64,000 nucleotides of DNA from Bradyrhizobium arachidis (lineage in GTDB: Bacteria; Pseudomonadota; Alphaproteobacteria; Rhizobiales; Xanthobacteraceae). This document shows, one piece after another, positions 21,190 through 53,097 of this stretch (the stretch's first letter is position 1; the number at the start of each line of letters is the position of its first letter). The translations under genes and the position numbers were made by a program. Under the pieces are notes generated by a model. The model saw nothing but the letters and a program-made list of their open reading frames with translations, made no database searches and was not told where the DNA came from. Location of the stretch: positions 1,798,001-1,862,000 of the forward strand of contig NZ_CP030050.1 of assembly GCF_015291705.1 (NCBI RefSeq), read 5' to 3'.

Positions 21190-21209
21190 TTACCCAATGT
21201 TACCCAACT
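21190..21209 (+). promoter_or_regulatory. 10-bp-period direct repeat, site A (putative operator)
   Basis: TTACCCAATGTTACCCAACT: two TTACCCAA units in phase with the DNA helix. It sits 114 bases upstream of the start of the ABC/kinase operon. It is one of five such sites (30676, 42504, 46919, 53078). Confidence 0.6.
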
Positions 21210-21236
21210 TCGATCTGAATGGGTGCACATGGGCGG

Positions 21237-21320
21237 AAAATGACGGTTAGCGTTTCCAACACTCGCGGCCCTGGAAGAGCAGGGCACGTGAATTTGCAGG
21301 CCAAAGAGCCAGAGGAGGGA
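21237..21320 (+). promoter_or_regulatory. Conserved operon leader with small hairpin
   Basis: Contains AAAATGACGG (21237-21246), a hairpin CCCTG-N6-CAGGG (21269-21284) followed by GCACGTG, and the ribosome binding site AGGAGGGA (21313-21320). The same elements in the same order and spacing precede the binding-protein pseudogene at 53214. Confidence 0.6.
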
Positions 21321-21323
21321 CTA

Positions 21324-22709
21324 ATGACAAGGACGCTAGCCGCTTTGGGCGGCCATTCGGCTCATTTTGTCAAAACCGCTCTGATTTGCTCAACTCTCTT
21401 GGCCGGTGCGGCCACATCTTTCGACCAGGCCGAAGCGCAGGAAATCAACTGGCGCCAGTTCGAGGGCTCTTCGATCGTGTGGGCTTACGACATCCATCCG
21501 TATGCTGACGCCGTTGCAGCACAGCTGCCTGAGTTCGAGAATTTGACAGGCATCAAGGTGACACCCGAGCTTTATCCGGACGACGCCTACTGGAATAAGC
21601 TGACAATCCAGCTGAGCACGAAGTCGGCCTCGTGGGACGTCGTCGGCACGGGGATTCAGCCGGCTTGGGATCTCGCGCCCGGTCAACTACTCGAGCCCCT
21701 CGACCGCTATCTGAACAACCCAAAGCTCACCTCGGCAAGCTATGACTACAAGGACTTCTTCCCCGCATTGCGTGACGCGCTGACGTGGCAAGTCAATGGC
21801 GGGCAAATCGAAGCGGGCGGGGGTCAGGTGTGGGCTATCCCGCACGGGTTCGAAAACATCCAATTATTCTATCGTAAGGACATTCTGGACAAGCACGGTA
21901 TCAAGGTTCCGACAACCCCGCCTGAAATGTCCGCGGCTTGCGAGAAGCTGAAATCTGCGGATCCGGCGATCACACCTCTGGGCGTGCGGGGGGTCCGCTT
22001 TTGGAGCAGCATCCACACGGCCGCCATCTCGATTGCCAAGTCTTACGGTGTGCACGACTTCGTCGTCAAGGACGGCAAATTAGAAACTGGTCTCGATTCG
22101 CCCGAGTCCGTCGCCTTCCACCAGGACTATGTGGAGATGATCAAGAAGTGCGCTGCTCAATCCTTTGCCAATGACAACTGGTATCAGGTGGTCGATGGCA
22201 TCAATTCGGGTCGGACAGCGATGGCGATCGATTCCAACATGTTCGGGTTCTGGAACGATGTCGCCGGCAAGCCCGCTTCGGGCAAGATCGCATTCGCTCC
22301 CCCTCTGCGAGCTCCGAACGGCAAGAATTTTGAATCGAACATCTGGATCTGGTCCCTGGCCATGAATGCGGCCTCTCAAAAAAAGGGAGCAGCCTGGCTG
22401 TTCATCCAGTGGGCGACGTCAAAGCAGGTCGAGCTCAAGGGTGCCGTCGCAGGGAAGCTCGTCAACTCTCCGCGCGCCTCGACCTGGAGCGACAAGGTTT
22501 GGCTCGACTACGCGACTAAACCGGAATTCACGAACTTCGTGGATACCTTCAAAATCGTGCAGGACAGGGCTGCATTGGCCTTTACGCCGCGCGCAGGATT
22601 TGCCGAGGCAATGAACGCCTGGGCAGTCGCCATGCAGAAAATGGTCAACGGCGCGGACGTGAAGGCGACTTTGACCGACCTCGCCTCCGAGATCCGCTCC
22701 TCCATGTAA
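21324..22709 (+). CDS. ABC transporter substrate-binding protein, family 1 (sugar type)
   Basis: Periplasmic binding protein of the MalE/UgpB-like solute-binding family 1, 461 aa, delivering a sugar or sugar derivative to the permeases encoded just downstream. A signal peptide with a hydrophobic core (ALICSTLLAGAATSF) ends near AEAQE. The mature part opens IVWAYDIHPYADAVAAQLPE and shows typical family-1 blocks such as WAIPHGFENIQLFYRKDILD. The start at 21324 follows AGGAGGGA directly; the frame is open further upstream but without a signal-peptide logic. It heads an eight-gene operon. Confidence 0.88.
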   Translation: MTRTLAALGGHSAHFVKTALICSTLLAGAATSFDQAEAQEINWRQFEGSSIVWAYDIHPYADAVAAQLPEFENLTGIKVTPELYPDDAYWNKLTIQLSTKSASWDVVGTGIQPAWDLAPGQLLEPLDRYLNNPKLTSASYDYKDFFPALRDALTWQVNGGQIEAGGGQVWAIPHGFENIQLFYRKDILDKHGIKVPTTPPEMSAACEKLKSADPAITPLGVRGVRFWSSIHTAAISIAKSYGVHDFVVKDGKLETGLDSPESVAFHQDYVEMIKKCAAQSFANDNWYQVVDGINSGRTAMAIDSNMFGFWNDVAGKPASGKIAFAPPLRAPNGKNFESNIWIWSLAMNAASQKKGAAWLFIQWATSKQVELKGAVAGKLVNSPRASTWSDKVWLDYATKPEFTNFVDTFKIVQDRAALAFTPRAGFAEAMNAWAVAMQKMVNGADVKATLTDLASEIRSSM

Positions 22710-22718
22710 GGCGGTTGA

Positions 22719-22779: not shown

Positions 22780-23742
22780 ATGGACCTTCAAGGCATCGAC
22801 GCAATCGTGACGCTACAATCATCGGTCGACCAGCTGTCCTCGTCCAAAAACGAGCAGGTGCAAAAGGCCGAGCAGAATGCTCTTGACTGGTGGAGCCTTG
22901 CTGCGATTGCCCCCGCAATCATCATCCTGCTTGGATTTCTTTTTCTGTTTTCCTATGGGGTCTTTCAATCACTCACCGATCTCAAGCTTGGCCGTCCCGT
23001 GGTTCGCTTCATTGGATTCACCAACTATGAAGTGGCAATCAAGACCCAAGATTTCTGGAACAGCGTGCGGGCGACTATGGCGTATGCCTGCTCCGCCGTG
23101 CTCGCCGAAGCGTTCTTTGGGCTTGCGCTCGCCAAATTGTTCGCAAGTGGGGTGTTCCTTGCCCGGCTGATGCGGCCGGTCATTCTCCTTCCCCTGGTTC
23201 TGCCGCCAATGAGCGTCGCCTTGATGTGGACCACAATGATGGATCCGCAGATTGGGATCCTGAACTATTTGCTTTCGCTCGTTGGGATCGGACGGTTCGC
23301 ATGGATTTCGGATGCCAGCACGGCGATGTTCTCACTGTTACTCATCGACATATGGACTTACACGCCATTCTTTGCGCTCATCATCTTCGCCGGGTTGCAG
23401 GGCATCAACGATGAGGTCAGAGAAGCCGCGCGGGTCAATGGCGCGCGGGGTTGGGCAACGTTCCTCCATATCGAGCTTCCGCTCATCGCGCCGTACATCC
23501 TGATCGCCGCGGTATTTCGGCTGATCGAATCGCTCAACCAGTTTGACATCATCTTCGGAACAACCCAGGGCGGGCCGGGTGACAGTACTTCCGTGCTCTC
23601 GGTTCGCGCCTACATCACGGCCTTTCAAAATCTCGCCTTCGGGCGTGGTGCCGCGCTCATGGTTGTCAATTGGATGATCGTGCTTCTCGGAACCTTTGCC
23701 ATGGTGAGATTGTGGCGGTTGGTCCGTCAGCGCGTAAGCTAG
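22780..23742 (+). CDS. ABC sugar-type permease 1 (MalF-like)
   Basis: Inner-membrane channel subunit, 320 aa, six or more membrane spans after a ~35-residue cytoplasmic N-terminus. The EAA loop that docks on the ATPase is EAARVNGARGWATFLHIELP. The C-terminal region has the common QGGPGDSTSVLSVRAYITAF block of family-1 permeases. It starts 70 bases after the binding-protein gene and ends 11 bases before permease 2. It pairs with permease 2 and the ATPase at 27139. Confidence 0.88.
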   Translation: MDLQGIDAIVTLQSSVDQLSSSKNEQVQKAEQNALDWWSLAAIAPAIIILLGFLFLFSYGVFQSLTDLKLGRPVVRFIGFTNYEVAIKTQDFWNSVRATMAYACSAVLAEAFFGLALAKLFASGVFLARLMRPVILLPLVLPPMSVALMWTTMMDPQIGILNYLLSLVGIGRFAWISDASTAMFSLLLIDIWTYTPFFALIIFAGLQGINDEVREAARVNGARGWATFLHIELPLIAPYILIAAVFRLIESLNQFDIIFGTTQGGPGDSTSVLSVRAYITAFQNLAFGRGAALMVVNWMIVLLGTFAMVRLWRLVRQRVS

Positions 23743-23753
23743 AGGGGGCTGAC

Positions 23754-24614
23754 ATGCGTTTTAATCGCTCAACGCCTGCAAGCTTGTTCCTTAATCTGCT
23801 GATTGTTGCTTGTACGCTGATCCTGACATTTCCGCTGGTCTGGATCGTGATGATGTCGGTGAAGCAGCAGGCCGAGGTCATGACCTGGCCGCCGCGCTTT
23901 ATCTTCACTCCAACATTTGAAAACTTCCGCGTTTTGTTCGATGCCGCCCACGCCGGGGCGACAAGCTATGGCACTATCAAGGTTGATTTCTTGACCCCGA
24001 TCACGAATAGCGTCGTCATCTCGCTTTGTGCGGTGCTCGTATCGCTCGTTGCCGGGGTACCGGCAGGCTACGTCCTGGCGAGGCGTGATATCCCTATGAA
24101 GGAGGACATCGCATTCTTCATTCTGGGCTTCCGCTTCGCGCCGGCTCTCCTTGTCGTCATACCGCTGTTCAGCGTGTTTCAGACAATCGGCCTTTATGAC
24201 ACCTATTGCGGTATGATCTGGGTCTATCAAGTCGTCACGCTGCCAATGATCATTTGGCTGAGCCGTTCATATATCGAGGACATCCCAAAGGACGTTGAGG
24301 AGGCGGCCGCCATGGATGGCGCAAAGCCATTCCGGGTTGTCTGGCACATCGTTCTTCCGCTTCTAAAGCCCGGCTTGATAGGCGCCTCTTTGCTTATCTT
24401 CTTGCTCGCGTGGCACAACTTCGCGCTCGGCCTGATCCTCAGTTCGACGAAAGCACCAGTCACGGTCGCCCTGCTCAAGCTGCTCAATCCCGGCGTTCAG
24501 TTCTATCCGGTGATGGCTGCGGGTCTGGTGGTGACCATGATTGTGCCGGTCGTCCTGATCATCCTTGGCCAGCGTCATCTCGAACGTGGTCTTACCTTCG
24601 GAGCCGTGAAATGA
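23754..24614 (+). CDS. ABC sugar-type permease 2 (MalG-like)
   Basis: Second channel subunit, 286 aa, six predicted membrane spans beginning LFLNLLIVACTLILTFPLVW. The EAA loop is EEAAAMDGAKPFRVVWHIVL. The start at 23754 (MRFNRST) is preferred over the longer frame because it follows AGAGGGGGCTGAC and removes overlap with permease 1. Its 3' end overlaps the kinase start by four bases (ATGA). Confidence 0.88.
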   Translation: MRFNRSTPASLFLNLLIVACTLILTFPLVWIVMMSVKQQAEVMTWPPRFIFTPTFENFRVLFDAAHAGATSYGTIKVDFLTPITNSVVISLCAVLVSLVAGVPAGYVLARRDIPMKEDIAFFILGFRFAPALLVVIPLFSVFQTIGLYDTYCGMIWVYQVVTLPMIIWLSRSYIEDIPKDVEEAAAMDGAKPFRVVWHIVLPLLKPGLIGASLLIFLLAWHNFALGLILSSTKAPVTVALLKLLNPGVQFYPVMAAGLVVTMIVPVVLIILGQRHLERGLTFGAVK

Positions 24615-25552
24615 GCCCCAGACCATTGATGTTCTTCGGAACGACCAATCTCGACCTCTGCTTCAACGTCGAGCGGCTTCCAACGCCGGGTGAAAGCCTG
24701 ATGGGAAGCTTAAAGCGGAATGCGGGAGGCAAGGGCGCCAATCAGGCGGTCGCCGCAGCTCGATTGGGCCTTCGGCCGAGCTTCTACACCCGGCTTGGCG
24801 ATGACGACGCCGGTCGATCCTTGCTGCAAGCGCTGCGTGAGGCAGGTGTCCGTCTCGATGCCATAGCGGTGTGCCCAGGGGAGATATCGGGTTCTGCTCT
24901 CGTCCTTGTCGGTGACGACGCCTCCAACATCATTGTCATAGACCCGGGAGCCAATGCAAATGTCACACCAAGCATGGTCGAAAAGGCGGCCGAATTCATT
25001 GAGCGGGACGCAATCGTCGTTGCCGAGATGGGCATGCCCGTCCCCGCGCTCAATCACCTGTTTGCAATGAAGAGCAGCAAAGGATTCGATCTCATTTTCA
25101 ATCCGGCGCCCGTGAGGGCGGGCCTGTCGGCGGCGGCATGGAGGAGTGTCGATTTCGTCACTCCAAACCAGACGGAATCTTTCGAGCTCACCGGTGTCGA
25201 GGTGCACGACCTCGACAGCGCAGCTCATGCGGCCGGAAAGCTTCTCGATCTCGGGCCAAGAGCTGCCCTGATCACGCTTGGTGGGCAGGGGGCCTACTAC
25301 GCCGATGCCAGCGCGTCTTTTGCGCTGAGGGCATTTCCTGTGAAGGTCGTTGATACAACCGCGGCGGGCGATGCCTTTAATGGAGCCTTCGCAGCCTCTC
25401 TTGCCCACCGGTTGCCGATACGAGAAGCGATCAAAAAGGCGCTCGCGGTTGCCGCCTTATGCGTGACGCGACGCGGGGCCCAGAGCTCGATGCCCAGCAG
25501 TGGGGCCGTCGACGAGTTTCTGAATTCTCAAACGATGTTGGAGTTGGAATGA
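24611..25552 (+). CDS. PfkB/ribokinase-family carbohydrate kinase
   Basis: Cytoplasmic kinase of 313 aa that phosphorylates a sugar or nucleoside. It shows the first PfkB signature RNAGGKGANQAVAAARLG and the second DTTAAGDAFNGAFAASLA, with the catalytic Asp in GD and the anion-hole TAAGD glycines. PNQTE in the middle is typical of ribokinase-like members. It overlaps the upstream permease and the downstream dehydrogenase by ATGA, so it is tightly coupled. The imported substrate is probably phosphorylated here. The exact sugar is unknown. Confidence 0.88.
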   Translation: MSPRPLMFFGTTNLDLCFNVERLPTPGESLMGSLKRNAGGKGANQAVAAARLGLRPSFYTRLGDDDAGRSLLQALREAGVRLDAIAVCPGEISGSALVLVGDDASNIIVIDPGANANVTPSMVEKAAEFIERDAIVVAEMGMPVPALNHLFAMKSSKGFDLIFNPAPVRAGLSAAAWRSVDFVTPNQTESFELTGVEVHDLDSAAHAAGKLLDLGPRAALITLGGQGAYYADASASFALRAFPVKVVDTTAAGDAFNGAFAASLAHRLPIREAIKKALAVAALCVTRRGAQSSMPSSGAVDEFLNSQTMLELE

Positions 25553-26319
25553 CTGAACAGTTCTCAGTTGCAGACAGGACCGTGCTCGTGACCGGTGCGG
25601 GCGGGGGCATTGGCTCAGCCATTGCCAATGCTTTCCGTCAGGGCGGTGCGAACGTCCTGGCAACCGACGTAAATGTGGAAATTCTCCGGAACATTCTGAC
25701 GCGCTTGCCGCACGGCAATGGCATTCTGCCCATGAGCATGGACGTGTCTCGAGAAGATGATGTCGGCAGGGTGCTTGATGAGATCGCCAAGCGCTTCGGC
25801 AGGCTCGATGTCCTGATCAACAACGCTGGAATAAAATCGGCCCAGCCGCTTCTGACCGGCAATGCCGATAGAATCGAAAAGACCATACAGATCAATTCCG
25901 TCGCGGTGCTTCGCTGTGCCAAGCAAGCGATCGAGCGCTTCATGAAGAGCAAGGGCGGCCGCATCGTCAATGTCGGGTCCTCATTGTCATCTCAAGGCGC
26001 GGTTTTCAACTACCAGGCAGGCGGCGCTGATTATTGCTTGTCAAAGGCGATCGTACACGACGTGACAAAGTTGCTCGCCTATGAATGTGCTCCGCTCAAG
26101 ATCAACGTCAACGCGATTGCACCCGGGATCATCGATACACCCATGCACGGGCGTCCGCGGGAGGAGACCGAAGTGCGCCACAGTGGCCGAATTCCGCTGG
26201 GCCGGGTCGGATTGCCGGAAGATATCGCAGGCCTCGCGGTGTTCCTGGCCAGCCCCGCTGCCTCCTACATGACCGGGCAGGTCGTCCATGTGAATGGCGG
26301 GATGCTGATGCATGGATAG
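25549..26319 (+). CDS. Short-chain dehydrogenase/reductase (SDR)
   Basis: Classical SDR oxidoreductase, 256 aa. The Rossmann motif is TGAGGGIG in VLVTGAGGGIGSAIANAF, followed by an acidic residue (Asp40, in VLATDVN) at the end of beta-2, which suggests NAD rather than NADP. LINNAGI is present, and the catalytic Ser (NVGSSLSSQ), Tyr and Lys (YCLSK) are in place. The C-terminus GQVVHVNGGMLMHG is typical. The start overlaps the kinase stop. It probably oxidises a hydroxyl group of the imported sugar or an intermediate. Confidence 0.88.
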   Translation: MTEQFSVADRTVLVTGAGGGIGSAIANAFRQGGANVLATDVNVEILRNILTRLPHGNGILPMSMDVSREDDVGRVLDEIAKRFGRLDVLINNAGIKSAQPLLTGNADRIEKTIQINSVAVLRCAKQAIERFMKSKGGRIVNVGSSLSSQGAVFNYQAGGADYCLSKAIVHDVTKLLAYECAPLKINVNAIAPGIIDTPMHGRPREETEVRHSGRIPLGRVGLPEDIAGLAVFLASPAASYMTGQVVHVNGGMLMHG

Positions 26320-27139
26320 CACCGGCTCAAACGTGAACTGGCCGCCAATAGAAGGGATCATCTCGGACCTGGATGGCGTTGTCTATCGTGGCAGCACCGC
26401 AATCGTGGATGCGATAGAAGCATTTACGCGATGGCAGGAAGCCGGCGTGCCGTTCTGTTTTGTGACGAACAATTCCACGCATACCCCTGAGGACGTCGTC
26501 CGCAAGCTGAGAGGATTTGGTCTTCCGATCGCGGCGTCAGAGGTCGTGACAAGTGCTATCACCGCCGCAGAACTCATTCGAACGAACTATCCGCAGTTGA
26601 CGCGAATCTATGTCATCGGCGCTCCCTCGCTTGTCACAGCCATGCGCGATGTTGGACTGGAGGTCACTGACCGAACGCCTGAAGCCGTTGTGATGGGACT
26701 TGACCGGGATATCACGCACGAGAAGATGCGAATTGCCGTTGAAGCGATCCTGAATGGCGCCGTCTTCATCGGAACCAATCCCGATCTTCTGCTGCCGACG
26801 GCCAGCGGGTTCGAGCCTGGGGCTGGTGCGACCATTGCAGCTGTGGCAGCGGCTACGCAAGTGCAGCCCTCGATCGTTGGGAAGCCGCAAGTGCCGATGA
26901 TCGAGACAGCGCTCTCACGCCTTGGTACGAACCGCGGTTCGACCATTATGATCGGAGACCAAGTATCTACGGATATTCAAGCCGGGAAGAGGGCGGGTCT
27001 TGCCACGGTGCTTGTCAGAACCGGCGTGCCGATGCCTCAGGATCCCTCCTTGATGGCCCCGGACTTCATCGTATCGAGCTTGCGCGAAATTGAGGTAAGT
27101 GCTGCTCACGCGGCCGAGGCGCGACAGAGGATGGCATAA
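26312..27139 (+). CDS. HAD-IIA (NagD-like) phosphatase
   Basis: Haloacid-dehalogenase-superfamily hydrolase of the NagD/4-nitrophenylphosphatase type, 275 aa. Motif I is SDLDGVVYRG (Asp19 nucleophile, Asp21 general acid), motif II is FVTNNST, and the C-terminal motif IMIGDQVSTDIQAGKRAGLA carries the metal-binding Asp. The cap region contains GLDRDITHEKM. It overlaps the SDR gene by eight bases and the ATPase gene by one. It probably dephosphorylates a sugar phosphate or glycolate-type by-product in the pathway. Confidence 0.86.
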   Translation: MDSTGSNVNWPPIEGIISDLDGVVYRGSTAIVDAIEAFTRWQEAGVPFCFVTNNSTHTPEDVVRKLRGFGLPIAASEVVTSAITAAELIRTNYPQLTRIYVIGAPSLVTAMRDVGLEVTDRTPEAVVMGLDRDITHEKMRIAVEAILNGAVFIGTNPDLLLPTASGFEPGAGATIAAVAAATQVQPSIVGKPQVPMIETALSRLGTNRGSTIMIGDQVSTDIQAGKRAGLATVLVRTGVPMPQDPSLMAPDFIVSSLREIEVSAAHAAEARQRMA

Positions 27140-28251
27140 TGGCCAACGTTCGCCTGGAGAGCATCAAGAAGGCCTATGGGACCATCGAGATCCTGCGTAA
27201 TATCGATCTGACCATCGATCACGGCGAATTTGTCGTCTTCGTTGGTCCGTCCGGGTCAGGCAAATCCACGCTTCTGCGCATGATTGGCGGACTCGAGCCC
27301 ATCAGCGGCGGGCGGCTCTTCATCGACCATGAGCTCGTCAACGACATCGATGCGGCCGATCGCAACCTCGGCATGGTCTTTCAGAGTTACGCTCTCTATC
27401 CGCATATGACGGTGAGAGAGAACCTGGCCTTTCCCCTGCGCATGGCCAAAGCCTCGAAAGCCGAGATCGCGGCCAAGTTAGCCAAAATAGCGTCGCTATT
27501 GCAGATCGACCATCTATTGGATCGCAAGCCTCGACAGCTTTCAGGCGGGCAACGCCAGCGCGTCGCAATCGGGCGCGCCATCATGCGAGAACCAAAAGTG
27601 TTCCTGTTCGATGAGCCCCTGTCCAACCTCGACACCGAGTTGCGCGTGCAAATGCGGGTTCAGATTGCCAAGCTCCACAAGCAGCTCGGAAATACCATGA
27701 TCTATGTGACACATGACCAGGTCGAGGCGATGACCATGGCCGACAAGATCGTCGTCCTCAAGGACGGCAACATCGAACAGGTTGGCAGCCCCCACGATCT
27801 ATATCACAATCCGGCCTCTCGCTTTGTGGCAGGATTCATCGGCTCGCCGAAGATGAACTTCCTGGGCGGCAAGGTCGTGGCAGCTCACGAGCAAGGCCTG
27901 CACGTCCGACTGGAGGCTGGTTCTACAATCTCCGTTCCGGTCCAGCCGGACCAAATGCTAGTTGGCAAGCCGGTCACTGTCGGAATCCGCCCGGATGACT
28001 TCTGCTCGCCGGCACCCGAGCAGCAGGAGATCTCCATTGGACTTGAGGTCGATTTCGTTGAGCATCTCGGAAGTGTCACGTACATCTACGGTAACGTTGG
28101 AGACGAAACGGTCGTCGCCAGGGCACCAAAATCCGGCTCGCGCAAAGGCGCCGGAAAGCTTACCCTCACCGCCGCTCCAGCCGATTGCCACTTGTTCATG
28201 AGCAATGGAAAGGCGGTTCGGCGGTTGCAAGTGCCTGCGACTTGGAGCTAG
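27139..28251 (+). CDS. ABC importer ATPase (MalK/UgpC type)
   Basis: Nucleotide-binding subunit, 370 aa. Walker A GPSGSGKST, Q-loop FQSYALYPHM, signature LSGGQRQRVAIGRA, Walker B VFLFDEPLSNLD and the H-loop YVTHD are all intact. The C-terminal ~130 residues form the TOBE/OB regulatory domain found in MalK-type proteins that serve family-1 sugar importers. It energises the permeases at 22780 and 23754. It is separated from them by the three enzyme genes but in the same operon. Confidence 0.9.
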   Translation: MANVRLESIKKAYGTIEILRNIDLTIDHGEFVVFVGPSGSGKSTLLRMIGGLEPISGGRLFIDHELVNDIDAADRNLGMVFQSYALYPHMTVRENLAFPLRMAKASKAEIAAKLAKIASLLQIDHLLDRKPRQLSGGQRQRVAIGRAIMREPKVFLFDEPLSNLDTELRVQMRVQIAKLHKQLGNTMIYVTHDQVEAMTMADKIVVLKDGNIEQVGSPHDLYHNPASRFVAGFIGSPKMNFLGGKVVAAHEQGLHVRLEAGSTISVPVQPDQMLVGKPVTVGIRPDDFCSPAPEQQEISIGLEVDFVEHLGSVTYIYGNVGDETVVARAPKSGSRKGAGKLTLTAAPADCHLFMSNGKAVRRLQVPATWS

Positions 28252-28273: not shown

Positions 28274-28326
28274 GATGCCGGCTCCGGATCGACACGCGGA
28301 CCACTGAGGTGAAGGGAGCCGGCATC
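28274..28326 (+). promoter_or_regulatory. 12-bp inverted repeat around the start of the regulator gene
   Basis: Perfect arms GATGCCGGCTCC (28274-28285) and GGAGCCGGCATC (28315-28326) enclose the GTG start at 28309 and its upstream sequence. In RNA the hairpin would bury the initiation region; in DNA it could be an operator. Confidence 0.55.
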
Positions 28327-30067: not shown

Positions 30068-30619
30068 TCATGCCCGTCGAAGCGGCTGCTTGGCCGTGGA
30101 GGCCTGCTCCAGAGAGAACTTCGGTACCGACGACGATCCATGAGAGCCAAGGCTTATGAGCCTGATGTCCGATCCAATCGGCAGCGCAAGCGCCTCGGGT
30201 CGCAGATAGACGGACCCATCCAGTTGCGAACCTAGCCGTTGCTCCGCGGCTGTTATCTTTGCCTCGTCCGCCGCGACAAACAGGACTTTGAACCCTCGGC
30301 TTGCAAACCACTCCATACGGCGAAGCTCGAGCTCCTGACCGCGATCGAGCGGCACTCCTGCCGGTGTCCGTTCAATCATGAAGGCAGGCGGAAAGTTCGT
30401 CACTCCGGTCATCCTTGCACCTTCCAACAAATCACCAAGATCTTCCCAGCATGCAAACGGGTCGATCATGACGATCGCCGCATAGCAGGAAGGGGGCACC
30501 TTGGGCCCCGCTTGCAAGTTCCGCAGGAGACAGTCGTTCCAGTCGATGACGGGAAGCGTGGCCATGACCAGCATGGCGTTCTGTGGAAGGGTCCGCAGTG
30601 ATGGCGCATAGATCGTCAT
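30068..30619 (-). CDS. Diverged half-barrel paralog of the PEP-hydrolase-like domain
   Basis: A 183-aa protein from the ATG at 30619 (a GTG start at 30670 would add 17 residues). The middle block MTGVTNFPPAFMIE matches FAGVTNFPSVIHID of the preceding regulator and FSGVINYPTISTMG of the barrel protein at 43839. The surrounding order (L-P-x-x-D-W-N-D, D-P-F-A-C-W, GQELELRRMEWFASRGFKVL) also follows that domain, but the N-terminal phosphate/metal loop GAGIGSG and the C-terminal part are missing. It is probably a sensory or accessory derivative rather than an enzyme. It converges with the regulator gene four bases apart, and repeat site B lies just upstream. Confidence 0.65.
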   Translation of the reverse strand: MTIYAPSLRTLPQNAMLVMATLPVIDWNDCLLRNLQAGPKVPPSCYAAIVMIDPFACWEDLGDLLEGARMTGVTNFPPAFMIERTPAGVPLDRGQELELRRMEWFASRGFKVLFVAADEAKITAAEQRLGSQLDGSVYLRPEALALPIGSDIRLISLGSHGSSSVPKFSLEQASTAKQPLRRA

Positions 30620-44708: not shown

Positions 44709-46473
44709 CCCGATCACCGAATTGAACAATGCAGCTTCCTTCTCCAAAGCGAGCAAGCCAACGCACGATTCGCAGACGGACGTGCTCGTGATCGGCAGCG
44801 GCGCCGCCGGACTGTCCGCAGCGCTCTATGCGGCAAAGGCCGGACTTCGCGTCACGGTCTGCGAGAAGTCTAACCGGCTTGGCGGCACGACCGCGCTCTC
44901 GAACGGCATGATCTGGGTTCCATGCTCAATGCAGGCCCGAGCCGCGAAAATCGATGATTCGATTACGAAAGCGAAGACCTATCTGCAACACGAACTTGGC
45001 AACTACTATCGCCCGGAGTTCGTGAACGCCTATCTTGAAGACGGCCCAACGGCGCTCGCCAGCTTGGAGAATGGGAGTGAAGTCAAGTTCACACTGGCCT
45101 CCGCTCCGGATTATCATTCGAGCCAAATCGGCGGGGTCGACAAGGGCCGGGCGCTAAGCCCAGTACCTTACGACGGGCGGCTTCTTGGCAAGGATTTCGA
45201 CCTGATAGGTGATCCGATTCGCGTCGTGCTCGGCGGTATGATGATTTCGTCCGGCGAGGTCAGAAGCTTCCTCAACCCCTTCCAGTCGGTTGCCTCGTTC
45301 AAACACGTCCTCGGCCGGGTGAGCCGCTACGCAGGCGACCGGCTGCGCTACAGGAGGGGCACTGAACTCAGTGGCGGCAATGCGCTGATCGCGCGGTTAT
45401 TGGTAAGCGTTCGTAGATATGGCGTTGAAATCTGGCCACGCTGCCCGGCGATCGAACTCACGAGGGAAGGCGGGAGAGTTACTGGCGCAATCGTCAAGCG
45501 AGGTGGCGCCGATCTCCGGGTCCGCGCCTCGCACGGAGTGATCCTGGCAACCGGCGGCTTTGCGCGGAACGGAAAATTGCGAGCCCAGCTCAGCGGAGCC
45601 CACCAGCACAATGATACGCTCGCCCACAGCGATGTCACTGGTGATGGTATTGAGCTCGCAGGCAAGCTCGGAGCGGCAATTGATAATGACGTGGCATCGA
45701 GCGGCTTCTGGACGCCCGTCTCGATCCTCAGGAGCGGCCGCTCCTTGCAAGTGGTCCCGTACGGCTGGCTTGATCGTGGCCGTCCAGGCGTCATCGCGGT
45801 GGGGCCAAATGCCAAGCGCTTCGTCAATGAATCCAATTCGTATCATGATATCTGCCTTGCCATGTTCAACAACGGTTATCCGGCGGACAAGCGGTTCTAT
45901 TTCATCTGCGACAAGGAATTCGTCCGCCTCAGGGGCATGGGATACCTGCTCCCCTGGCCATGGACATTGAGCATCAAGAAGTATGCTCGGTTGGGCTACA
46001 TCGAGATTGGCCGGACTATTGCGGAGCTTGCGACGGAATTGGGCCTCGACCCGACAGAGCTCGAAAAAACCGTTGAAGAACACAATGCCCACGCAGCTGA
46101 AGGACGCGATCCGCTCTTCAACCGCGGTGAATCGGCTTTCAATCGTACGCTGGGAGATCCGGCGGTCGGAAAGAAAAACCCGAACCTTGGGGCTATCAAA
46201 ACCGGCCCATTCATCGCACTCCCAATTGTCCCGGCAACCCTTGGAACGGCCACCGGCCTCTCAACCGATGCAGAGGGACAGGTCCTGAATGGAAATGGCG
46301 CGCCGATCGCAGGTCTTTATGCCTGCGGCAATGACATGACCTCGCCGATGCGTGGAATCTACCCAGGGGCAGGCATTACGATCGGCCCGGCGATTGTGTT
46401 CGCCTACCGCGCAGTCGACAGCATCGTGCGGTCGGCGCGACAGGAGCAGCTCGCGGCGGCATCGGGAGCGTAA
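44701..46473 (+). CDS. FAD-dependent oxidoreductase (fumarate reductase / ketosteroid dehydrogenase-like)
   Basis: A 590-aa flavoprotein of the FAD-binding-2 family. The dinucleotide fold is VLVIGSGAAGLSAALYAAKA (GxGxxG at 32-37), followed by the EKSNRLGGTTALSNGMIWVP block. The C-terminal FAD contact is AGLYACGNDMTSPMRGIYPG then AGITIGPAIVFAYRA. The order of motifs resembles 3-ketosteroid-delta1-dehydrogenases and related 2-enoate/fumarate enzymes. It probably introduces or removes a double bond next to a carbonyl. The substrate is unknown. It is the last gene of the Tm-1-like operon. Confidence 0.85.
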   Translation: MNSPITELNNAASFSKASKPTHDSQTDVLVIGSGAAGLSAALYAAKAGLRVTVCEKSNRLGGTTALSNGMIWVPCSMQARAAKIDDSITKAKTYLQHELGNYYRPEFVNAYLEDGPTALASLENGSEVKFTLASAPDYHSSQIGGVDKGRALSPVPYDGRLLGKDFDLIGDPIRVVLGGMMISSGEVRSFLNPFQSVASFKHVLGRVSRYAGDRLRYRRGTELSGGNALIARLLVSVRRYGVEIWPRCPAIELTREGGRVTGAIVKRGGADLRVRASHGVILATGGFARNGKLRAQLSGAHQHNDTLAHSDVTGDGIELAGKLGAAIDNDVASSGFWTPVSILRSGRSLQVVPYGWLDRGRPGVIAVGPNAKRFVNESNSYHDICLAMFNNGYPADKRFYFICDKEFVRLRGMGYLLPWPWTLSIKKYARLGYIEIGRTIAELATELGLDPTELEKTVEEHNAHAAEGRDPLFNRGESAFNRTLGDPAVGKKNPNLGAIKTGPFIALPIVPATLGTATGLSTDAEGQVLNGNGAPIAGLYACGNDMTSPMRGIYPGAGITIGPAIVFAYRAVDSIVRSARQEQLAAASGA

Positions 46474-46918: not shown

Positions 46919-46938
46919 TTACTCAACATTACTCAGAT
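46919..46938 (+). promoter_or_regulatory. 10-bp-period direct repeat, site D
   Basis: TTACTCAACATTACTCAGAT: the same layout with T in place of the second C in both units. It lies 227 bases upstream of the branched-chain-type permease gene. Confidence 0.5.
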
Positions 46939-47165: not shown

Positions 47166-48029
47166 ATGGACACGCTACCTATCGCCATCTTCGAAATCTT
47201 GAGCTTCGGCGCGATCGTTGTGCTGGTCGTGCTCGGCCTCGGAATCATTGCCAGCATGATGGGTATCTTCAACTTCGCCCAGGGCGAGTTCGTCCTGCTT
47301 GGCGCCTACGTTACTTATCTCGTGCACAGCGTCGGTTTGCCGGTCCCGCTCGGGATGCTTGCCGCGCCAGTCGTCGTCGGCGCGCTTGGTTTCATCCTGG
47401 AAAAGCTCGTGGTGCGACGGTTCTATGCCGCTCCAATCGTCGCGATGCTTGGCACCTATGCGCTCGGGCTGATCATTCGCGAAGTCGTGCGCGGCCTGAT
47501 CGGCGGACTCTATCTCTCGGTGCCGGAGCCAATCGGTGGCTCCATCACGATCGGAAGTCTACACTTCGCCACCTGGCGCGGCGTCATCGTCATCATCACT
47601 TTGCTGGTGATGGCCGCGAGCCATGTACTGCTTGCCTACACCTCGTTCGGGCTGCGAGTCCGCGCCTCGCTGGAGAACCCGTCGCTGGCGCGTGCCTCGG
47701 GCATCTCCACGGGCATGATCTACAGCCTCACCTTTGCGTCTGGTGCGGCGCTCGCGGGCCTCGCGGGCGCGCTGATCGTGCCAGTCTTTTCACTGTTCGC
47801 CGATCTCGGCATCCGCTTTCTTATCCAGGGTTTTGTTGCCGTGATGGTCGGCGGCGTCGGGTCCTTTGCGGGCCCGGTCGCTGGCGCCAGCGTCATCGGC
47901 ACGTTCAGTGCCTCGCTGCCTTGGCTGATGTCACCGGTCATCGCCGACGTTCTGGTGTTCGTGCTCGCCATCATCTTTATCAAGTTCCGGCCGCAAGGCC
48001 TAATTTCGGGGAGAGGGGTCAACCGATGA
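47166..48029 (+). CDS. Branched-chain/urea-type ABC permease (LivH/UrtB-like)
   Basis: Inner-membrane permease of 287 aa with about eight membrane spans. Signature blocks are MMGIFNFAQGEFVLLGAYVT, SLENPSLARASGISTGMIYS and FIKFRPQGLISGRG at the end. It starts a tightly packed operon of permease, binding protein, second permease and two ATPases. Its stop overlaps the binding-protein start (ATGA). It transports an amino acid, urea or amide-type solute. Confidence 0.9.
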   Translation: MDTLPIAIFEILSFGAIVVLVVLGLGIIASMMGIFNFAQGEFVLLGAYVTYLVHSVGLPVPLGMLAAPVVVGALGFILEKLVVRRFYAAPIVAMLGTYALGLIIREVVRGLIGGLYLSVPEPIGGSITIGSLHFATWRGVIVIITLLVMAASHVLLAYTSFGLRVRASLENPSLARASGISTGMIYSLTFASGAALAGLAGALIVPVFSLFADLGIRFLIQGFVAVMVGGVGSFAGPVAGASVIGTFSASLPWLMSPVIADVLVFVLAIIFIKFRPQGLISGRGVNR

Positions 48030-49246
48030 TCAACGCCAGCCGTGAACTGAGCCGCCGCCGCTTTCTCGGCAATTTTGCTTTCGCTTCGGCTGCCATCGCG
48101 GCGGGCCCAGGCAGCTGGGTGATCCGCCCGGACTGGGCAAATGCTGCGGAAGGCCCGATCAGGCTCGGCATTGCTACCGATCTTACGGGGTCACTCGGCT
48201 TTGCCGGCAACACCGACGCCAATGTCGCTCGCATGCTAGTCAAGGAGATCAACGACTCCGGCGGCCTATTGGGACGCCCGATCGAGCTCCTGATTGAGGA
48301 TACTGCCTCCGACGAATCCGTCGCCGTAGGAAATGTGCGCAAGCTGATTCAGCGAGATAAGGTCGACTTGGTGATCGGGGGTATCTCGAGTTCGATGCGC
48401 AATGCGATCAAGGACGTCATTATCTCTCGCGGCAAGACGCTCTATATCTATCCGGAAGGTTACGAAGGCAAAGAGTGCACGCCCTCTCTGTTCTGCACCG
48501 GCCCGGTACCGGCGCAGAATTGCGACCAGTTCATTCCCTGGTTGATCAAAAATGGTGGCAAACGCTTTGCCCTGCCTGGCTCCAATTATGTTTGGCCGCA
48601 AACAATTAATGCCTATGCGCGCAAGGTGATCGAGAGCAGCGGTGGCGAAGTCGTCTTTGAAGAATACTACCCGCTCGACCAGATCGACTTTTCCTCTACG
48701 GTTAGCCGCATCATATCCAACAAAGTAGACGTGGTTTTCAACGCAATTGTCCCGCCAGGCGTTAGCCCGTTCTTCAAACAGCTCTACCAAGCCGGCTTCT
48801 CCAAAAACGGCGGGCGGCTGGGTTGCGTCTATTACGACGAAAACTTCCTGGAAATGAACCAGGCCCAGGAGATTGAAGGGCTTGCGAGCAGCCTCGACTA
48901 CTACAAGGTGCTCGCGGAGGCGGATCCAGTGAGCGCCAGGATTCAATCGGCTTACGACAAACAATTCCCTGCCAAGTTCCGGTTCTCGGCAGGCAGCGCC
49001 GCTACCGGCACCTATCGCGGACTGAAGCTATGGGAGGCCGCGGTGAAGGAGGCTGGTACAATTGACCGCGACTCGGTAGCCGCCGCCCTCGACCACGCCA
49101 AGATTGCAGAAGGGCCGGGCGGGCCTGCCGAAATGGCACCCGGCAAGCGCCACTGCAGGATGAATATGTACATCGGAGTGGCGAAGGGCGGCCAGTACGA
49201 GATTGTCGCGCGTAGCGCCGGCCTTGTCGATCCGAAGGAGTGCTGA
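48026..49246 (+). CDS. ABC substrate-binding protein, AmiC/UrtA-like, Tat-exported
   Basis: A 406-aa periplasmic binding protein of the leucine/amide/urea type. The N-terminus has a twin-arginine signal (SRRRFLGNFAFASAAIAAGP). The mature part begins IRLGIATDLTGSLGFAGNTD and includes GGLLGRPIELLIEDTASDES and the cysteine-containing GYEGKECTPSLFCTGPVPAQ, like amide/urea sensors. It starts at 48026, overlapping the permease stop. The intact copy has a dead paralog at 53214. The ligand may be an amide or amino-acid derivative. Confidence 0.9.
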   Translation: MINASRELSRRRFLGNFAFASAAIAAGPGSWVIRPDWANAAEGPIRLGIATDLTGSLGFAGNTDANVARMLVKEINDSGGLLGRPIELLIEDTASDESVAVGNVRKLIQRDKVDLVIGGISSSMRNAIKDVIISRGKTLYIYPEGYEGKECTPSLFCTGPVPAQNCDQFIPWLIKNGGKRFALPGSNYVWPQTINAYARKVIESSGGEVVFEEYYPLDQIDFSSTVSRIISNKVDVVFNAIVPPGVSPFFKQLYQAGFSKNGGRLGCVYYDENFLEMNQAQEIEGLASSLDYYKVLAEADPVSARIQSAYDKQFPAKFRFSAGSAATGTYRGLKLWEAAVKEAGTIDRDSVAAALDHAKIAEGPGGPAEMAPGKRHCRMNMYIGVAKGGQYEIVARSAGLVDPKEC

Positions 49247-50322
49247 TGTCATCGACCGGCACTCGCATACAGCCGCCGCCACGCGTCATTCAAGCTGCTC
49301 GTTCGCCCGTCATGGCATCTGCCTTCGCAGGGCGAAAGAAGGTGCTTCCGATCCTCGAATTGGCATTGCTGATTGCTGCTTCGATCGCACCGCTCGTCCT
49401 GCGGGATTACATCACTGTTTATGCGACGCGAGTGCTAATCCTGTGCCTCTTCGCGTTGTCGTTCGACCTGGTGTGGGGCTATGCCGGGATATTGAGCTTG
49501 GGCCAGTCGTTGTTCTTCGGCATGGCCGGCTACGGTGTGGCGCTGCTTTCACGCGACTTCGGGGTCGGATCGATTTTTGCCGTTCTTCCGGCCGGAGCCC
49601 TGATAGGCTTTGTGGCGGCATTGCTGTTGGCAGGCTTCCTGCTGCTCGGCCGTCATCCCTCCAGTGTGGTCTTCGTTTCCCTTGGTACGATGACCGGAGC
49701 TTACGCAGCTGACCGCCTGGCGAGAGGGTCACATTATCTTGGCGGCCAGAACGGCATCCCTTCGATCCAACCGATGACCATCGGCTCGCACGAATTGAGC
49801 GAGGGACCAGGTTTCTACTACCTGGTGCTCGCCATTCTAGTTCTGATCTATCTTCTGTCGCGCTTCTTGTCGCGATCCCAGTTCGGCCTGGCGCTCGCGG
49901 GATTGCGAGAGAACGAACAGCGGATCGCCTTCTTCGGGTACAAAGTGCAACATTTGAAGGCGATCATATTCGCAATCAGCGGCGCGATTGCAGGTACTTC
50001 CGGTAGCCTTTATGCGTTTCACGAGGGGTTCGTCTGGCCAAACATGCTGGGCGTGGTCATGTCGACCCAGGTCGTTCTCTACGTCTTGTTCGGCGGCTCC
50101 GGGACATTGATCGGTGCGGTCGTCGGCACCGCGATTGTCGAGGGGATCAGCTTCTGGCTCTCCGACAACTATCGCGATATCTGGCCGATCATTCTCGGCG
50201 TTCTGCTGTTGCTCGTCATTCTGTTCCGGCCCCTCGGCTTGATCAGCCTCGTGCTAGGCGAGCGAGAACGTGTCGGTTATTTCGGCCCGAGCCTGAAGGA
50301 GAAGCGCAATGCCGCTCCTTGA
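49246..50322 (+). CDS. Branched-chain/urea-type ABC permease (LivM/UrtC-like)
   Basis: A 358-aa second permease. Typical blocks are LCLFALSFDLVWGYAGILSL, the cytoplasmic LALAGLRENEQRIAFFGYKV, and VLFGGSGTLIGAVVGTAIVE. Its ATG overlaps the binding-protein stop by one base (TGATG). It overlaps the following ATPase gene by 14 bases. Confidence 0.9.
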   Translation: MSSTGTRIQPPPRVIQAARSPVMASAFAGRKKVLPILELALLIAASIAPLVLRDYITVYATRVLILCLFALSFDLVWGYAGILSLGQSLFFGMAGYGVALLSRDFGVGSIFAVLPAGALIGFVAALLLAGFLLLGRHPSSVVFVSLGTMTGAYAADRLARGSHYLGGQNGIPSIQPMTIGSHELSEGPGFYYLVLAILVLIYLLSRFLSRSQFGLALAGLRENEQRIAFFGYKVQHLKAIIFAISGAIAGTSGSLYAFHEGFVWPNMLGVVMSTQVVLYVLFGGSGTLIGAVVGTAIVEGISFWLSDNYRDIWPIILGVLLLLVILFRPLGLISLVLGERERVGYFGPSLKEKRNAAP

Positions 50323-51043
50323 AGCCGCCGGCGTCTCCAAGGTCTTTGGCAAGCTCACCGCGCTAGACGGAGCGGCGCTCACGGTCGGCGAGCGAGAGTT
50401 TCATGGCCTGATCGGTCCGAACGGCTCGGGCAAGAGCACTCTGATGAAGTGTCTTGCAGGTGCGCTAGTGCCGACGCAAGGCAAGGTGACGTTCATCAAT
50501 ACTGACGTCACCTCGTTGACGCCGCCAGAGCGCGCGCGAGCAGGCATGAGCCTGAAATTCCAGATCACCGCCGTGTTACCTGCCCTCACGCTTTACGACA
50601 ACATCCTGCTCGCGCTGCAGGCCCGGTCCTCACTGCTGGATCTTGCGTTCTCGCGCAGTCGGGGACGGCTGCACGAGGAGGTCATGAAGATGCTCGTCCA
50701 GTTCCGGCTCGCCGATCGCGCTTTTGACGCTGCGGCGACCCTGTCTCACGGGCAGCAGCAATGGCTGGAGATCGCGATGGCGCTCGCATGCCGGCCGCGC
50801 CTGCTGCTGTTGGACGAGCCGACCGGCGGCATGAGCCTAGAGGAGCGCCGCGTCACGGGCGAGTTGCTGCAGCCCATCAAGCAGCATTGCTCGCTCGTCA
50901 TCGTGGAGCACGACCTGGATTTCATCCGCGACATCTGCGACCGCTTGACGGTGCTTGATCAGGGCAAGGTGCTGGCGTCAGGAACGGTTGCCGAGATCCA
51001 GGCCAACAGAAGCGTCCAGGAGATTTATCTGCGCCGTGCCTGA
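50309..51043 (+). CDS. ABC ATPase (LivG/UrtD-like)
   Basis: A 244-aa ATPase. Walker A GPNGSGKST, signature LSHGQQQWLEIAMALA and Walker B LLLLDEPTGGMS are intact. LSHGQxQWLEI is the form seen in UrtD-type proteins of urea/amide importers rather than in LivG, which helps to place the system. It overlaps the next ATPase gene by eight bases. Confidence 0.9.
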   Translation: MPLLEAAGVSKVFGKLTALDGAALTVGEREFHGLIGPNGSGKSTLMKCLAGALVPTQGKVTFINTDVTSLTPPERARAGMSLKFQITAVLPALTLYDNILLALQARSSLLDLAFSRSRGRLHEEVMKMLVQFRLADRAFDAAATLSHGQQQWLEIAMALACRPRLLLLDEPTGGMSLEERRVTGELLQPIKQHCSLVIVEHDLDFIRDICDRLTVLDQGKVLASGTVAEIQANRSVQEIYLRRA

Positions 51044-51731
51044 AATCCTCAATATCAAGCATCTCGACGCCGGCTATGGACGCAGTCAGGTCTTGTACGG
51101 CGTCAATATGGCCATCCCGCCGCGTGGCGGGGTCGCCGTCCTCGGCCGCAACGGCGCCGGAAAGAGCACGCTCATGAAAGCTATCGTGGGCGAACTACCG
51201 GCATGGAAGGGCTGCCTGCATTTCAACGGCCAAGGCATCGATCGCCGGCGGACGGAAGTGCGGGTGCGGGCCGGCATTGGATATGTGCCGCAAGAGCATT
51301 CAGTGTTCGCGCGCCTCTCCGTGCGTGACAATCTCGCCGTCGGATCGCTTTTGGACCCCGATGGATCGGCAGCGGAGCGGGTGATGAAGATGTTTCCAAA
51401 GCTCGGCCAGCGTCTCGATCAGCCGGCCGGAACGCTCTCCGGTGGCGAGCGCAAGATGCTCGCAATCGGGCGCGCGATCCTCGGAAATCCGAAACTCCTC
51501 CTGCTGGACGAGCCGACCGAGGGTGTCTGGATCGGCGTCATCGAGGAGATCAGTGAGCGCCTGGTCGAGCTAGCTAGAGAGATCGCCATCATCATCGTCG
51601 AGCAACATCTCGACCTCGCAATGCGCGTAGCGGAGCAGGCCTATGTGCTCGATCGCGGCCGTGTCGCGCTTTCGGGCCCGTCGCAGCAGCTGCGCAACGA
51701 CCCGCGGCTGTTGACGTATCTAGCGCCGTAG
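51036..51731 (+). CDS. ABC ATPase (LivF/UrtE-like)
   Basis: A 231-aa ATPase from the GTG at 51036, which overlaps the preceding stop. Motifs are Walker A GRNGAGKST, YVPQEHSVFARLSVRDNL, signature LSGGERKMLAIGRA, Walker B LLLLDEPTEGVWIGVIEEI (the UrtE form) and the C-terminal LLTYLAP. It completes the importer. The amidohydrolase that follows may process the imported compound. Confidence 0.9.
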   Translation: MPEILNIKHLDAGYGRSQVLYGVNMAIPPRGGVAVLGRNGAGKSTLMKAIVGELPAWKGCLHFNGQGIDRRRTEVRVRAGIGYVPQEHSVFARLSVRDNLAVGSLLDPDGSAAERVMKMFPKLGQRLDQPAGTLSGGERKMLAIGRAILGNPKLLLLDEPTEGVWIGVIEEISERLVELAREIAIIIVEQHLDLAMRVAEQAYVLDRGRVALSGPSQQLRNDPRLLTYLAP

Positions 51732-51808
51732 AGGCGTTCGCCGGTGGCTATCTCCAGGTCGAAGGTGGCGCATTTGATTTTTTTGCGATGGCTGAACGGA
51801 GAGGGGCG

Positions 51809-53064
51809 ATGTCCGAAACCATGAGCGATTTTGTCAATGCGTGCCAAGTCGTCGATGTCCATGAACATCACATGGCCGAGGTCGCACATAGCGCGGACGT
51901 AAATCTGTTGAAACTGTTCCAACAGAGCTATGCGGCTTGGACGAGCCACGTGCTGCCATCCGAGCCTAAGGCAACGATCGAAATGGTATCTATCCCTCCC
52001 GAGCCGACCACCTGGGAGGCGCTTGCGCCGTTCCTCGAGAGGAGCGGATCGAACGCATTCGTCCGTAACCTCGTCCGCGGAGTCGCCGAGCTTTACGGTG
52101 TCGCCGACACTGGAATCACTCGCGACAACTGGGAGGCGGTAGATGCTTCGGTGCGCTTGCGCCACAAGGAGGCGACATGGCCAAGTGAGGTGATCGGGCG
52201 GGCCGCCATCCGAAGGATCGTAACGGACCCTTTTCTCGATCCGTTGATGGATCCGCGGCCGGTCCTAGGGCAAAGTTACGATGCGGTCCTGCGGATTAAC
52301 GCATTCGCCCTCGGCTGGCACCCGGAATCTCGCGATCATAATGGAAATTGCGGGCATACGTTGCTGCGGCGCCTTGGCCTGGAGGTGAAAACCTTCGATG
52401 ATTATTGCGACGCAATCCGCGAGCTCGTTGCCGGCTGCTCACGGCGCAATCACATCGCGCTCAAGAACGCACTTGCCTATGACCGGGATATTAGCTTTGA
52501 CGAACCGAACGAGGAACTGGCTCGGCAGGCGTGGGGACAGAGATTTCCATCCCCTGCGGCGCGCAAGGCGTTCTGCGACTTTGTCGTCGACTTGTTTTGT
52601 CAACTCGCAGGCGAGGCCGACCTGCCAGTCCAAACTCATCTTGGAACGGCAATCATAAGCGGCTCCCACCCCCTACGCATGACCGGATTGATTGAGCGTC
52701 ATCCTCGAACCCGCTTTCTGCTGATGCATTTGGCCTATCCCTGGAGCCGGGATCTGTTGGGAATGGCCTTTGTATACCGAAATGTCTGGCTTGATTTGTG
52801 CTGGTCGTTTCTGTTGAGCCCGTCACATTTCAAGCTCGCCCTCCACGAAGCCATTGAAGTCCTGCCAGATGAATCGCGAATGATGATTGGAGGAGATTGT
52901 CTTCACGTTGAGGAGACATTTGCCGCGATACGGGGCGCACGCCGGTTGATCGGTGAGGTTCTGAACGAAAAGTCGCGAACGGTTACTTTCGGTCGCGAGA
53001 CGCAGAGCGCTTGGCGATCGGAATCCTTGGCGAGAACGCGAAGGAGTTTTTCAGACTGTCCTGA
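51809..53064 (+). pseudogene. Amidohydrolase (TIM-barrel metal hydrolase), C-terminal frameshift
   Basis: Amidohydrolase-2-type enzyme of about 420 aa. The N-terminal metal motif is VDVHEHHM, with further histidines in LPVQTHLGTA and FLLMHLAYPWSRDL and the catalytic-type Asp in MMIGGDCLHVEETF. The natural ending is visible out of frame as RLAIGILGENAKEFFRLS with a TGA at 53062-53064. The main frame instead leaves homology near 52972, at GAAAAGTCG, and runs on to 53119 through regulatory DNA. One lost base explains it. The change affects only ~35 residues after the active site, so residual activity is possible. Start chosen after GGAGAGGGG. Confidence 0.75.
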
Positions 53065-53077
53065 ATGCTGCCCTTTG

Positions 53078-53097
53078 TTACGCGATTTTACCCAAAC
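53078..53097 (+). promoter_or_regulatory. 10-bp-period direct repeat, site E
   Basis: TTACGCGATTTTACCCAAAC: second unit intact, first unit degenerate. It is 116 bases upstream of the binding-protein pseudogene, the same distance as site A from its gene. Confidence 0.5.

Follow-up and report, generated by a model that had tools for sequence, protein, structure and literature searches.

The window analysed here, a 64,000-nucleotide stretch of Bradyrhizobium arachidis (assembly GCF_015291705.1, contig NZ_CP030050.1, positions 1,798,001 to 1,862,000), carries a short direct repeat ahead of several import and catabolism genes. Sequence comparison makes it highly probable that this repeat, TACCCR-N4-TACCCR (16 letters), is the operator of a protein encoded at 28309 that combines an enzyme-like barrel, an AAA+ domain and a Fis-type helix-turn-helix (HTH), and a model of targets and control can be linked to this assignment. 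The two half-sites, one helical turn apart, would be bound by the 28309 protein. The original prediction had proposed one shared regulator with this protein as first candidate, and that proposal is supported by the co-occurrence of protein and motif, by the protein being the sole regulator shared among clusters, and by the prediction of promoter type. The repeats (mismatches counted against YTACCCAAYNYTACCCA) and the candidate regulator are:

21190..21207, + strand: operator 1, TTACCCAATGTTACCCAA, ahead of the sugar-type ATP-binding cassette (ABC)/kinase operon; 0 mismatches
30676..30693, + strand: operator 2, CTACCCAACCCTACCCAA, between the divergent half-barrel gene and an RNA element; 0 mismatches
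42504..42520, + strand: operator 3, CTACCCAATTTTACCCA, ahead of the Tm-1-like operon; 0 mismatches
46919..46935, + strand: operator 4, with C to T in each unit, ahead of the urea/amide-type importer; 2 mismatches
53078..53094, + strand: operator 5, TTACGCGATTTTACCCA, ahead of a broken binding-protein gene; 2 mismatches
28309..30063, + strand: candidate regulator, with a PEP_hydrolase barrel, a linker helix, an AAA+ domain without GAFTGA and a Fis-type HTH (Pfam, alignments, AlphaFold model)

The five repeats were found where the original prediction had placed them. A search for the YTACCCAAYNYTACCCA pattern at up to 3 mismatches returned five matches in the window, all on the + strand, and 100 shuffled windows gave a mean of 0.57 matches and a maximum of 4. 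The 10-bp period fits contact with two successive grooves on one face of the helix. Counterparts of operator 1 stand ahead of the orthologous operon in Shinella, Phyllobacterium and genome G058 as well as in Bradyrhizobium clusters. The two weaker sites are supported because matching forms occur in relatives: the site orthologous to 46919 is an exact TTACCCAACATTACCCA in G004 and G020, the operator 5 form is found again in locus L069, and TTACGCAATTTTACCCA precedes the equivalent binding-protein gene in G058, where the regulator is 63% identical. Two observations speak against site 5, since the orthologous position reads TTACGCGATTTTACTCA in L070 (G026) and has decayed past recognition in L053 (G020). 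Operator 5 overlaps the 3' end of the amidohydrolase reading frame (51788..53119).

Distances from the site start to the start codons judged likely are 135 bp (21325), 98 bp (42602), 247 bp (47166) and 137 bp (53215). The claimed spacing of 57-227 bases upstream throughout thus gave way to 98-247 bp, with site 30676 pointing away from the half-barrel gene that it had been said to serve. That gene is encoded on the minus strand, and its first ATG (30619) is 57 bp to the rear of the site. It was rejected as a target of 30676 because the site faces the other way. Site 30676 probably serves the MmgR-like RNA element on its other side.

The worry that the motif might simply be frequent at random was not borne out, as it is rare against reversed controls in the own genome and in sets of 60, 242 and 19 genomes. 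The only exact copies in the own genome (9.87 Mb) are the three in the window. At up to 3 mismatches the own genome holds 81 matches vs 142 for the reversed control, so matches past 1-2 mismatches are background; near-matches outside the window lie inside long reading frames (L005, L008) or between reading frames (L004, L009). With the own genome included, the exact pattern occurs in 7 of 60 genomes (reversed control 0) and the exact motif in 45 of the 242 genomes examined from the genus (1 match for the reversed control). Nineteen whole genomes (~102 Mb) yielded 16 exact matches, of which 13 stand beside the regulator or in its cluster, against 3 for the reversed control, and 7 of the 19 have no exact match.

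All 45 site-bearing genomes have a NodA match at E <1e-90, and therefore the system belongs to nodulating strains; in the full set of 242, the NodA cut-off is passed by 147 genomes, and 130 matches were counted as strong. In some strains, which are nodule isolates, the system is carried on large plasmids. In relatives the operator stands ahead of further genes as well, for amidases and for other binding proteins. Two such amidase genes (PF01425) have the operator 121 bp upstream (L089:15680-17194) and 70 bp upstream (L065:5774-7336). The regulon may be centred on amide breakdown.

Conservation ahead of orthologous operons extends to distant Alphaproteobacteria, as had been anticipated. We compared 26 distant loci (522,391 bases) around regulator homologs of 33-64% identity, from taxa including Shinella, Phyllobacterium, Mesorhizobium, Sinorhizobium, Rhizobium, Bosea and Azospirillum. 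Exact TACCCA-N4-TACCCA occurs 16 times in 15 of the 26 loci and never at any of 25 other spacings; at up to 1 mismatch it is present in 24. The permuted halves ACCCAT and TCACCA gave 1 exact match each, and ACCCAT, which is the motif in shifted form, had 12 matches at 1 mismatch. In every one of the 24 site-bearing loci an importer, Tm-1-like, cupin or half-barrel gene lies no more than 400 bp from at least one site, and the half-barrel gene adjoins a site in 19. An inverted extra half-site is seen in only some of the distant loci (for example L183, L189 and L195). The operators of L183, L189 and L192 have a third direct copy and an inverted copy upstream, beside perfect sigma-54 promoters.

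The genes held in common by the distant loci are the regulator (25 loci), the PEP barrel (20) and UPF0261 (18); in the 26th locus, L203, the regulator sits in a longer frame and was excluded by the length rule. No other regulator was found in 6 or more of the 26 loci. Twenty Bradyrhizobium Tm-1-like operons without a called regulator, each examined over 10 kb, had 0 sites at up to 1 mismatch, which indicates that the motif tracks the regulator and not the enzymes. Four of these control operons lie in genomes with the regulon elsewhere, and a PEP barrel was called in 17 of the 20.

Within the genus, 44 of the 45 site genomes carry the barrel-AAA-Fis gene at no less than 82% identity, 43 of them at full length and G201 in two pieces; no regulator of at least 80% identity was found in the 197 genomes without the exact motif. 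The association is strong (Fisher p 1e-47, 242 genomes), with a p value inflated by shared island ancestry. In G201 (C1:9136294-9139414) the regulator gene is broken between the barrel and the AAA+ domain, and three exact operators persist. Among 30 named loci with a regulator relative, 28 are Bradyrhizobium loci with full-length copies of 82-98% identity; the remaining two are Teredinibacter (27%, AAA+/HTH part) and Mesorhizobium (a fragment at a contig end). The barrel-AAA-Fis protein is also the sole regulator found among reading frames common to at least three of the Bradyrhizobium clusters compared. The 28309 protein is thus, as far as comparative evidence goes, very probably the regulator that reads the operator.

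The 28309 protein matches PF00158 (AAA+ sigma-54-interaction, 6.6e-17), AAA_lid_14 (7e-14) and PF02954 (Fis-type C-terminal HTH, 2.5e-08). PF09370 (PEP_hydrolase) scores 290.8 bits over its barrel and 295.7 bits over the operon enzyme, and both the regulator barrel and the operon's PEP-barrel enzyme match PDB 2p10. The kinship between the barrel and the enzyme of the controlled operon suggests an enzyme fold turned sensor. The AlphaFold model (mean pLDDT 80.5, pTM 0.50) has eight barrel strands, a long helix (254-283), an AAA+ domain and a terminal HTH. Its Walker A motif is GEAGSGK, and GxxGxGK is present in 18 of 33 aligned regulators. All 33 share the helix SRK[TS]L[YF]N. Of three loci from outside the order, two have the exact operator; the third, L302 (8956-10842), has the helix STRTLYNK instead of SRKTLYNK, and no TACCCA repeat operator lies nearby at up to 1 mismatch. 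L302 would be a natural specificity variant, a single case in the expected direction.

Promoter type follows the GAFTGA loop of the AAA+ domain. The GAFTGA loop is present in 5 of 27 aligned regulators and absent from that of the window. The perfect sigma-54 element, with consensus TGGCACGN4TTGC, has five occurrences among the 26 distant loci, one in each GAFTGA-positive locus and ~60-75 bp from the operator. At 0 mismatches it was found neither in the 21 GAFTGA-negative loci nor in five plasmid loci added later. In L182 the operator counted beside the sigma-54 element is of the TACCCG form; in the other four GAFTGA loci the two point at different genes, the sigma-54 element at the Tm-1-like gene and the direct repeat at the half-barrel gene. 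In the window, the best sigma-54 match within 300 bp of an operator has 3 mismatches and lies beside 46919; the only window match at 0-1 mismatches is at 2437.

Near the Bradyrhizobium operators a different element stands out. Among 28 non-redundant exact sites, 12 have CTTA at exactly +34, counted from the first TACCCA, and 11 have TTAT at +35. Two copies are in the window:

30711..30716, + strand: CTTACA, -10-like element, +34 from the first TACCCA (sequence)
42539..42544, + strand: CTTATG, -10-like element, +34 (sequence)

A -10-like element at +34 would place the second half-site on the -35 region. No common sigma-70 promoter consensus was found near 30676. Viewed as a bacterial enhancer-binding protein (bEBP), the window regulator has the AAA+ domain, the Fis-type HTH and Walker A, and is without GAFTGA, a sigma-54 promoter and a palindromic site. 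We infer sigma-70-type control of the window regulon.

The proposed mechanism builds on these features. The recognition helix SRKTLYNK of the Fis-type HTH would read each TACCCA half-site, and the N-terminal barrel may sense a metabolite of the pathway. In Bradyrhizobium the model envisages a weak promoter that has its -10-like element at ~+34 and its -35 under the operator. Given the absence of GAFTGA and of a good sigma-54 promoter at the window operators, and this predicted placement of the operator, the most likely action of the protein there is to activate a sigma-70-type promoter. Members of the GAFTGA clade would act as classical enhancer proteins, with the operator ~60-75 bp from a perfect sigma-54 promoter. 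Predicted targets are the Tm-1-like/PEP-barrel/oxidoreductase operon and the ABC importers, joined in some strains by amidase genes, and probably the MmgR-like RNA. As its gene is at the end of a controlled operon, the regulator probably feeds back on itself.

Several observations weigh against this account. The contrast in sigma-54 promoters between GAFTGA-positive and GAFTGA-negative loci (5/5 vs 0/21, Fisher p 1.5e-5) is a single evolutionary contrast because the positive regulators form one clade. The -10-like element is present in under half of the non-redundant Bradyrhizobium sites, and the distant loci have no prominent -10-like element in common. Dimers with a Fis-type HTH usually bind inverted repeats, unlike the direct repeat seen here. 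Two distant loci (L181, L182) fail at 1 mismatch and read TACCCG; with A or G allowed at the sixth position the operator is found in 26 of 26 loci at up to 1 mismatch and in 20 exactly, with 0 at 16 control spacings, a relaxation chosen after these two loci had been seen. The operator is present at up to 1 mismatch in all five later plasmid loci, three of which are near relatives of loci already counted. One genome, G118, has a site ahead of transporter genes and no close copy of the regulator.

It is improbable that a different, unlinked regulator, for instance one of OmpR/PhoB type or the LacI-type protein of 60315-61406, reads the operator while the barrel-AAA-Fis gene is merely co-inherited cargo. 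OmpR/PhoB-type response regulators often bind direct repeats of 10-11 bp, and direct repeats suit them better than a Fis-type dimer; a LacI-type gene is present in the window and in G004, and an unlinked regulator would be invisible to comparisons of neighbourhoods. However, the motif tracks barrel-AAA-Fis and not the enzymes, GAFTGA status predicts the type of promoter beside the operator, the homolog with an altered helix (L302) is without the motif, and no other linked regulator is common to the clusters. More improbable still, to the point of being scarcely credible, is that the repeats belong to a mobile or duplicated leader that was copied to several places in the island. Sites 21190 and 53078 do have a leader of ~100 bp in common, and IS110-type fragments lie close upstream of 42504, but exact spacing is kept even at loci whose regulator has just 33-39% identity to that of the window, and their sites have no evident flank in common.

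A closer alternative, unlikely on balance but with an appreciable chance of being correct, keeps the operator and the regulator and takes the Bradyrhizobium protein to be a repressor that covers the -35 and is released by a ligand of the barrel. The operator would overlap the -35 of the promoter with the +34 element, and with neither GAFTGA nor a good sigma-54 promoter at the window operators, activation of the enhancer type is unlikely there. On the other hand, TACCCA matches TTGACA poorly, so that the unaided promoter would be weak, and relatives with GAFTGA should be activators from what is known of the family. NtrC of Rhodobacter capsulatus, which is without GAFTGA, is reported to activate via sigma-70 (PMC10274813). 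Direct activation by the 28309 protein would have a described parallel: that source also lists Caulobacter NtrC and Vibrio VpsR among unconventional bEBPs without GAFTGA that act with sigma-70 promoters. Like these, the 28309 protein is a bEBP-family AAA+ protein without the sigma-54 loop; unlike them, it has a TIM-barrel sensor and a direct-repeat operator, and GAFTGA-positive and GAFTGA-negative members of its one family keep the same operator.

A search of the open-access literature brought up no account of this operator or regulon among the papers listed. A probable named counterpart is y4pA (bjs_08283) of B. japonicum SEMIA 5079, a 1755-bp gene of the symbiosis island called a sigma-54 factor copy (PMC9069715, seen in part). 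The 28309 gene is also 1755 bp, and its identity with y4pA is suggested by length and position. In the sections available, PMC9069715 treats y4pA as a sigma-54 factor copy and gives no operator or target. The same sections describe a highly expressed major facilitator superfamily gene near an enoyl-CoA hydratase, lacI and ABC transporters, with no RpoN/RpoD promoter found; this neighbourhood resembles the window cluster in gene content. On pNGR234a, locus L267 has a regulator homolog and an exact operator; the NGR234 gene bears the name y4pA.

The controlled operon encodes both bacterial parts (UPF0261 and TIM barrel) that are fused in plant Tm-1, the origin of which is treated in PMC5028733; in the window they are separate genes. 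The terms sigma, HTH and promoter had no match in PMC5028733. PDB 2p10 (Mll9387 of Mesorhizobium) is a sequence relative of both the PEP-barrel enzyme and the sensor domain of the regulator; it is described as a putative phosphonopyruvate hydrolase and differs in having no HTH.

The RNA element lies downstream of site 30676, between the half-barrel gene and the Tm-1-like operon, and has an anti-Shine-Dalgarno core.

30983..31062, + strand: MmgR-like RNA element, comprising a hairpin, UUCCUCCCUGACU and a terminator (conserved in Bradyrhizobium clusters)
31027..31053, + strand: terminator stem-loop, then a T-rich tail (sequence)

Like MmgR (RF00519), it has a UUCCUCCCUnGACU core followed by a terminator; unlike MmgR, it scores 14.4 bits, below the gathering threshold of 41, at which Rfam gave no match on the window. 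A true MmgR copy elsewhere in the genome scores 75.5 bits. The consensus of the element has 19 pairs, one with two-sided change. Its model gave 21 strong matches (at least 79 bits, several of them the same or near-identical copies) in 64 sources chosen among the loci compared. Fourteen of the 21 have an operator (up to 1 mismatch) within 360 bp upstream, at 96-114 bp in L055, L062, L086, L090, L201 and L202 and at 306 bp in the window; two have an operator at 2 mismatches, two have one at 549 bp and three have none, L053 among these being cut by the locus end. Related copies, many of them weak, are present in 144 of 146 genus genomes. None of 12 non-canonical MmgR-like copies examined (L264 among them being the L066 copy again) had an operator (up to 3 mismatches) within 600 bp, and MmgR-like copies as general members of the regulon were rejected. 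The comparisons make a regulon-linked MmgR-like RNA likely.

The remaining genes of the clusters are listed below.

21325..22709, + strand: sugar-type binding protein, SBP_bac_1 (Pfam; start picked by eye from a Shine-Dalgarno-like sequence)
22780..24614, + strand: two ABC permeases, BPD_transp_1 (Pfam)
24611..28251, + strand: PfkB kinase, short-chain dehydrogenase, HAD phosphatase and UgpC/MalK-type ATPase (Pfam)
30068..30619, - strand: half-barrel protein, 183 amino acids (model best matches part of 2p10)
42602..43852, + strand: Tm-1-like protein with UPF0261 N and C domains (Pfam; PDB 3wrw, 3wry, 9mpy)
43839..44708, + strand: PEP-hydrolase-like TIM barrel (Pfam; PDB 2p10, Mll9387)
44701..46473, + strand: FAD-dependent oxidoreductase (Pfam)
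47166..51731, + strand: branched-chain/urea-type ABC importer with two permeases, a binding protein and two ATPases (Pfam, conservation)
51788..53119, + strand: amidohydrolase, Amidohydro_2 (Pfam)
53215..54431, + strand: second importer-type binding protein, frameshift-broken here (Pfam; two-frame alignment to an intact relative)

The gene content originally assigned to the operons agrees with Pfam: an ABC/kinase operon ending in the barrel-AAA-Fis gene, a Tm-1-like/PEP-barrel/oxidoreductase operon and an importer. The binding-protein gene at 53221 is indeed a pseudogene, as an intact relative aligns to it in two reading frames. The UPF0261 domains of the Tm-1-like protein score 262.4 and 107.7 bits. 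The likeness of the half-barrel protein to 2p10 is only suggestive, because its model is moderate (mean pLDDT 66.3) and the best match, to 2p10 over 131 columns, is weak (E 1.7e-3).

In other clusters a pyruvate kinase gene follows the oxidoreductase (L061:10569-11984, L062:7477-8892, L067:9148-9528; Pfam), the only further frame common to three Bradyrhizobium clusters that the window genes left unlabelled. The window at ~46622-46720, after the oxidoreductase, reads by eye like a pyruvate kinase remnant. A PEP/pyruvate link for the pathway is possible.

Between the half-barrel and Tm-1-like genes, 31700-42500 holds SMC-like, SIR2-like, DUF2130 and HipA-like genes with IS110-type fragments. The two genes are ~0.5 kb apart in G004, which indicates that insertions split the window cluster; the G026 cluster is likewise split. 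The LacI-type regulator gene near the cluster (60315-61406) is 99% identical in G004. A leader of ~100 bp is common to two binding-protein genes of different families (21225-21330 and 53110-53218); it consists of AATGACGGnTAGC, then a GGCCAAAGAGCC-like stretch adjoining the ribosome-binding site, and is also present in G058 (L179). Considered as a structured RNA, it gave 3 consensus pairs and no compensatory change.

These results would provide an operator, a regulator and a target list for two widespread families of unsettled function, UPF0261/Tm-1-like and PEP_hydrolase, which are fused in the plant virus-resistance protein Tm-1 and are here tied to uptake in nodulating bacteria. We tentatively suggest, as a possibility to be taken seriously, that the family kept its helix and direct-repeat operator and switched its polymerase partner, the GAFTGA clade acting as sigma-54 enhancer proteins and the others (without GAFTGA, often without Walker A) acting directly with sigma-70, in Bradyrhizobium from an operator on the -35. 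The sensor would be related to the TIM-barrel enzyme of the pathway itself, and the regulator of nodulating Bradyrhizobium may also drive an MmgR-like RNA whose anti-Shine-Dalgarno core could pair with regulon mRNAs. Homologs that have retained or lost GAFTGA with the operator constant form a natural series, which would be useful for understanding how sigma-54 activators become sigma-70 regulators.

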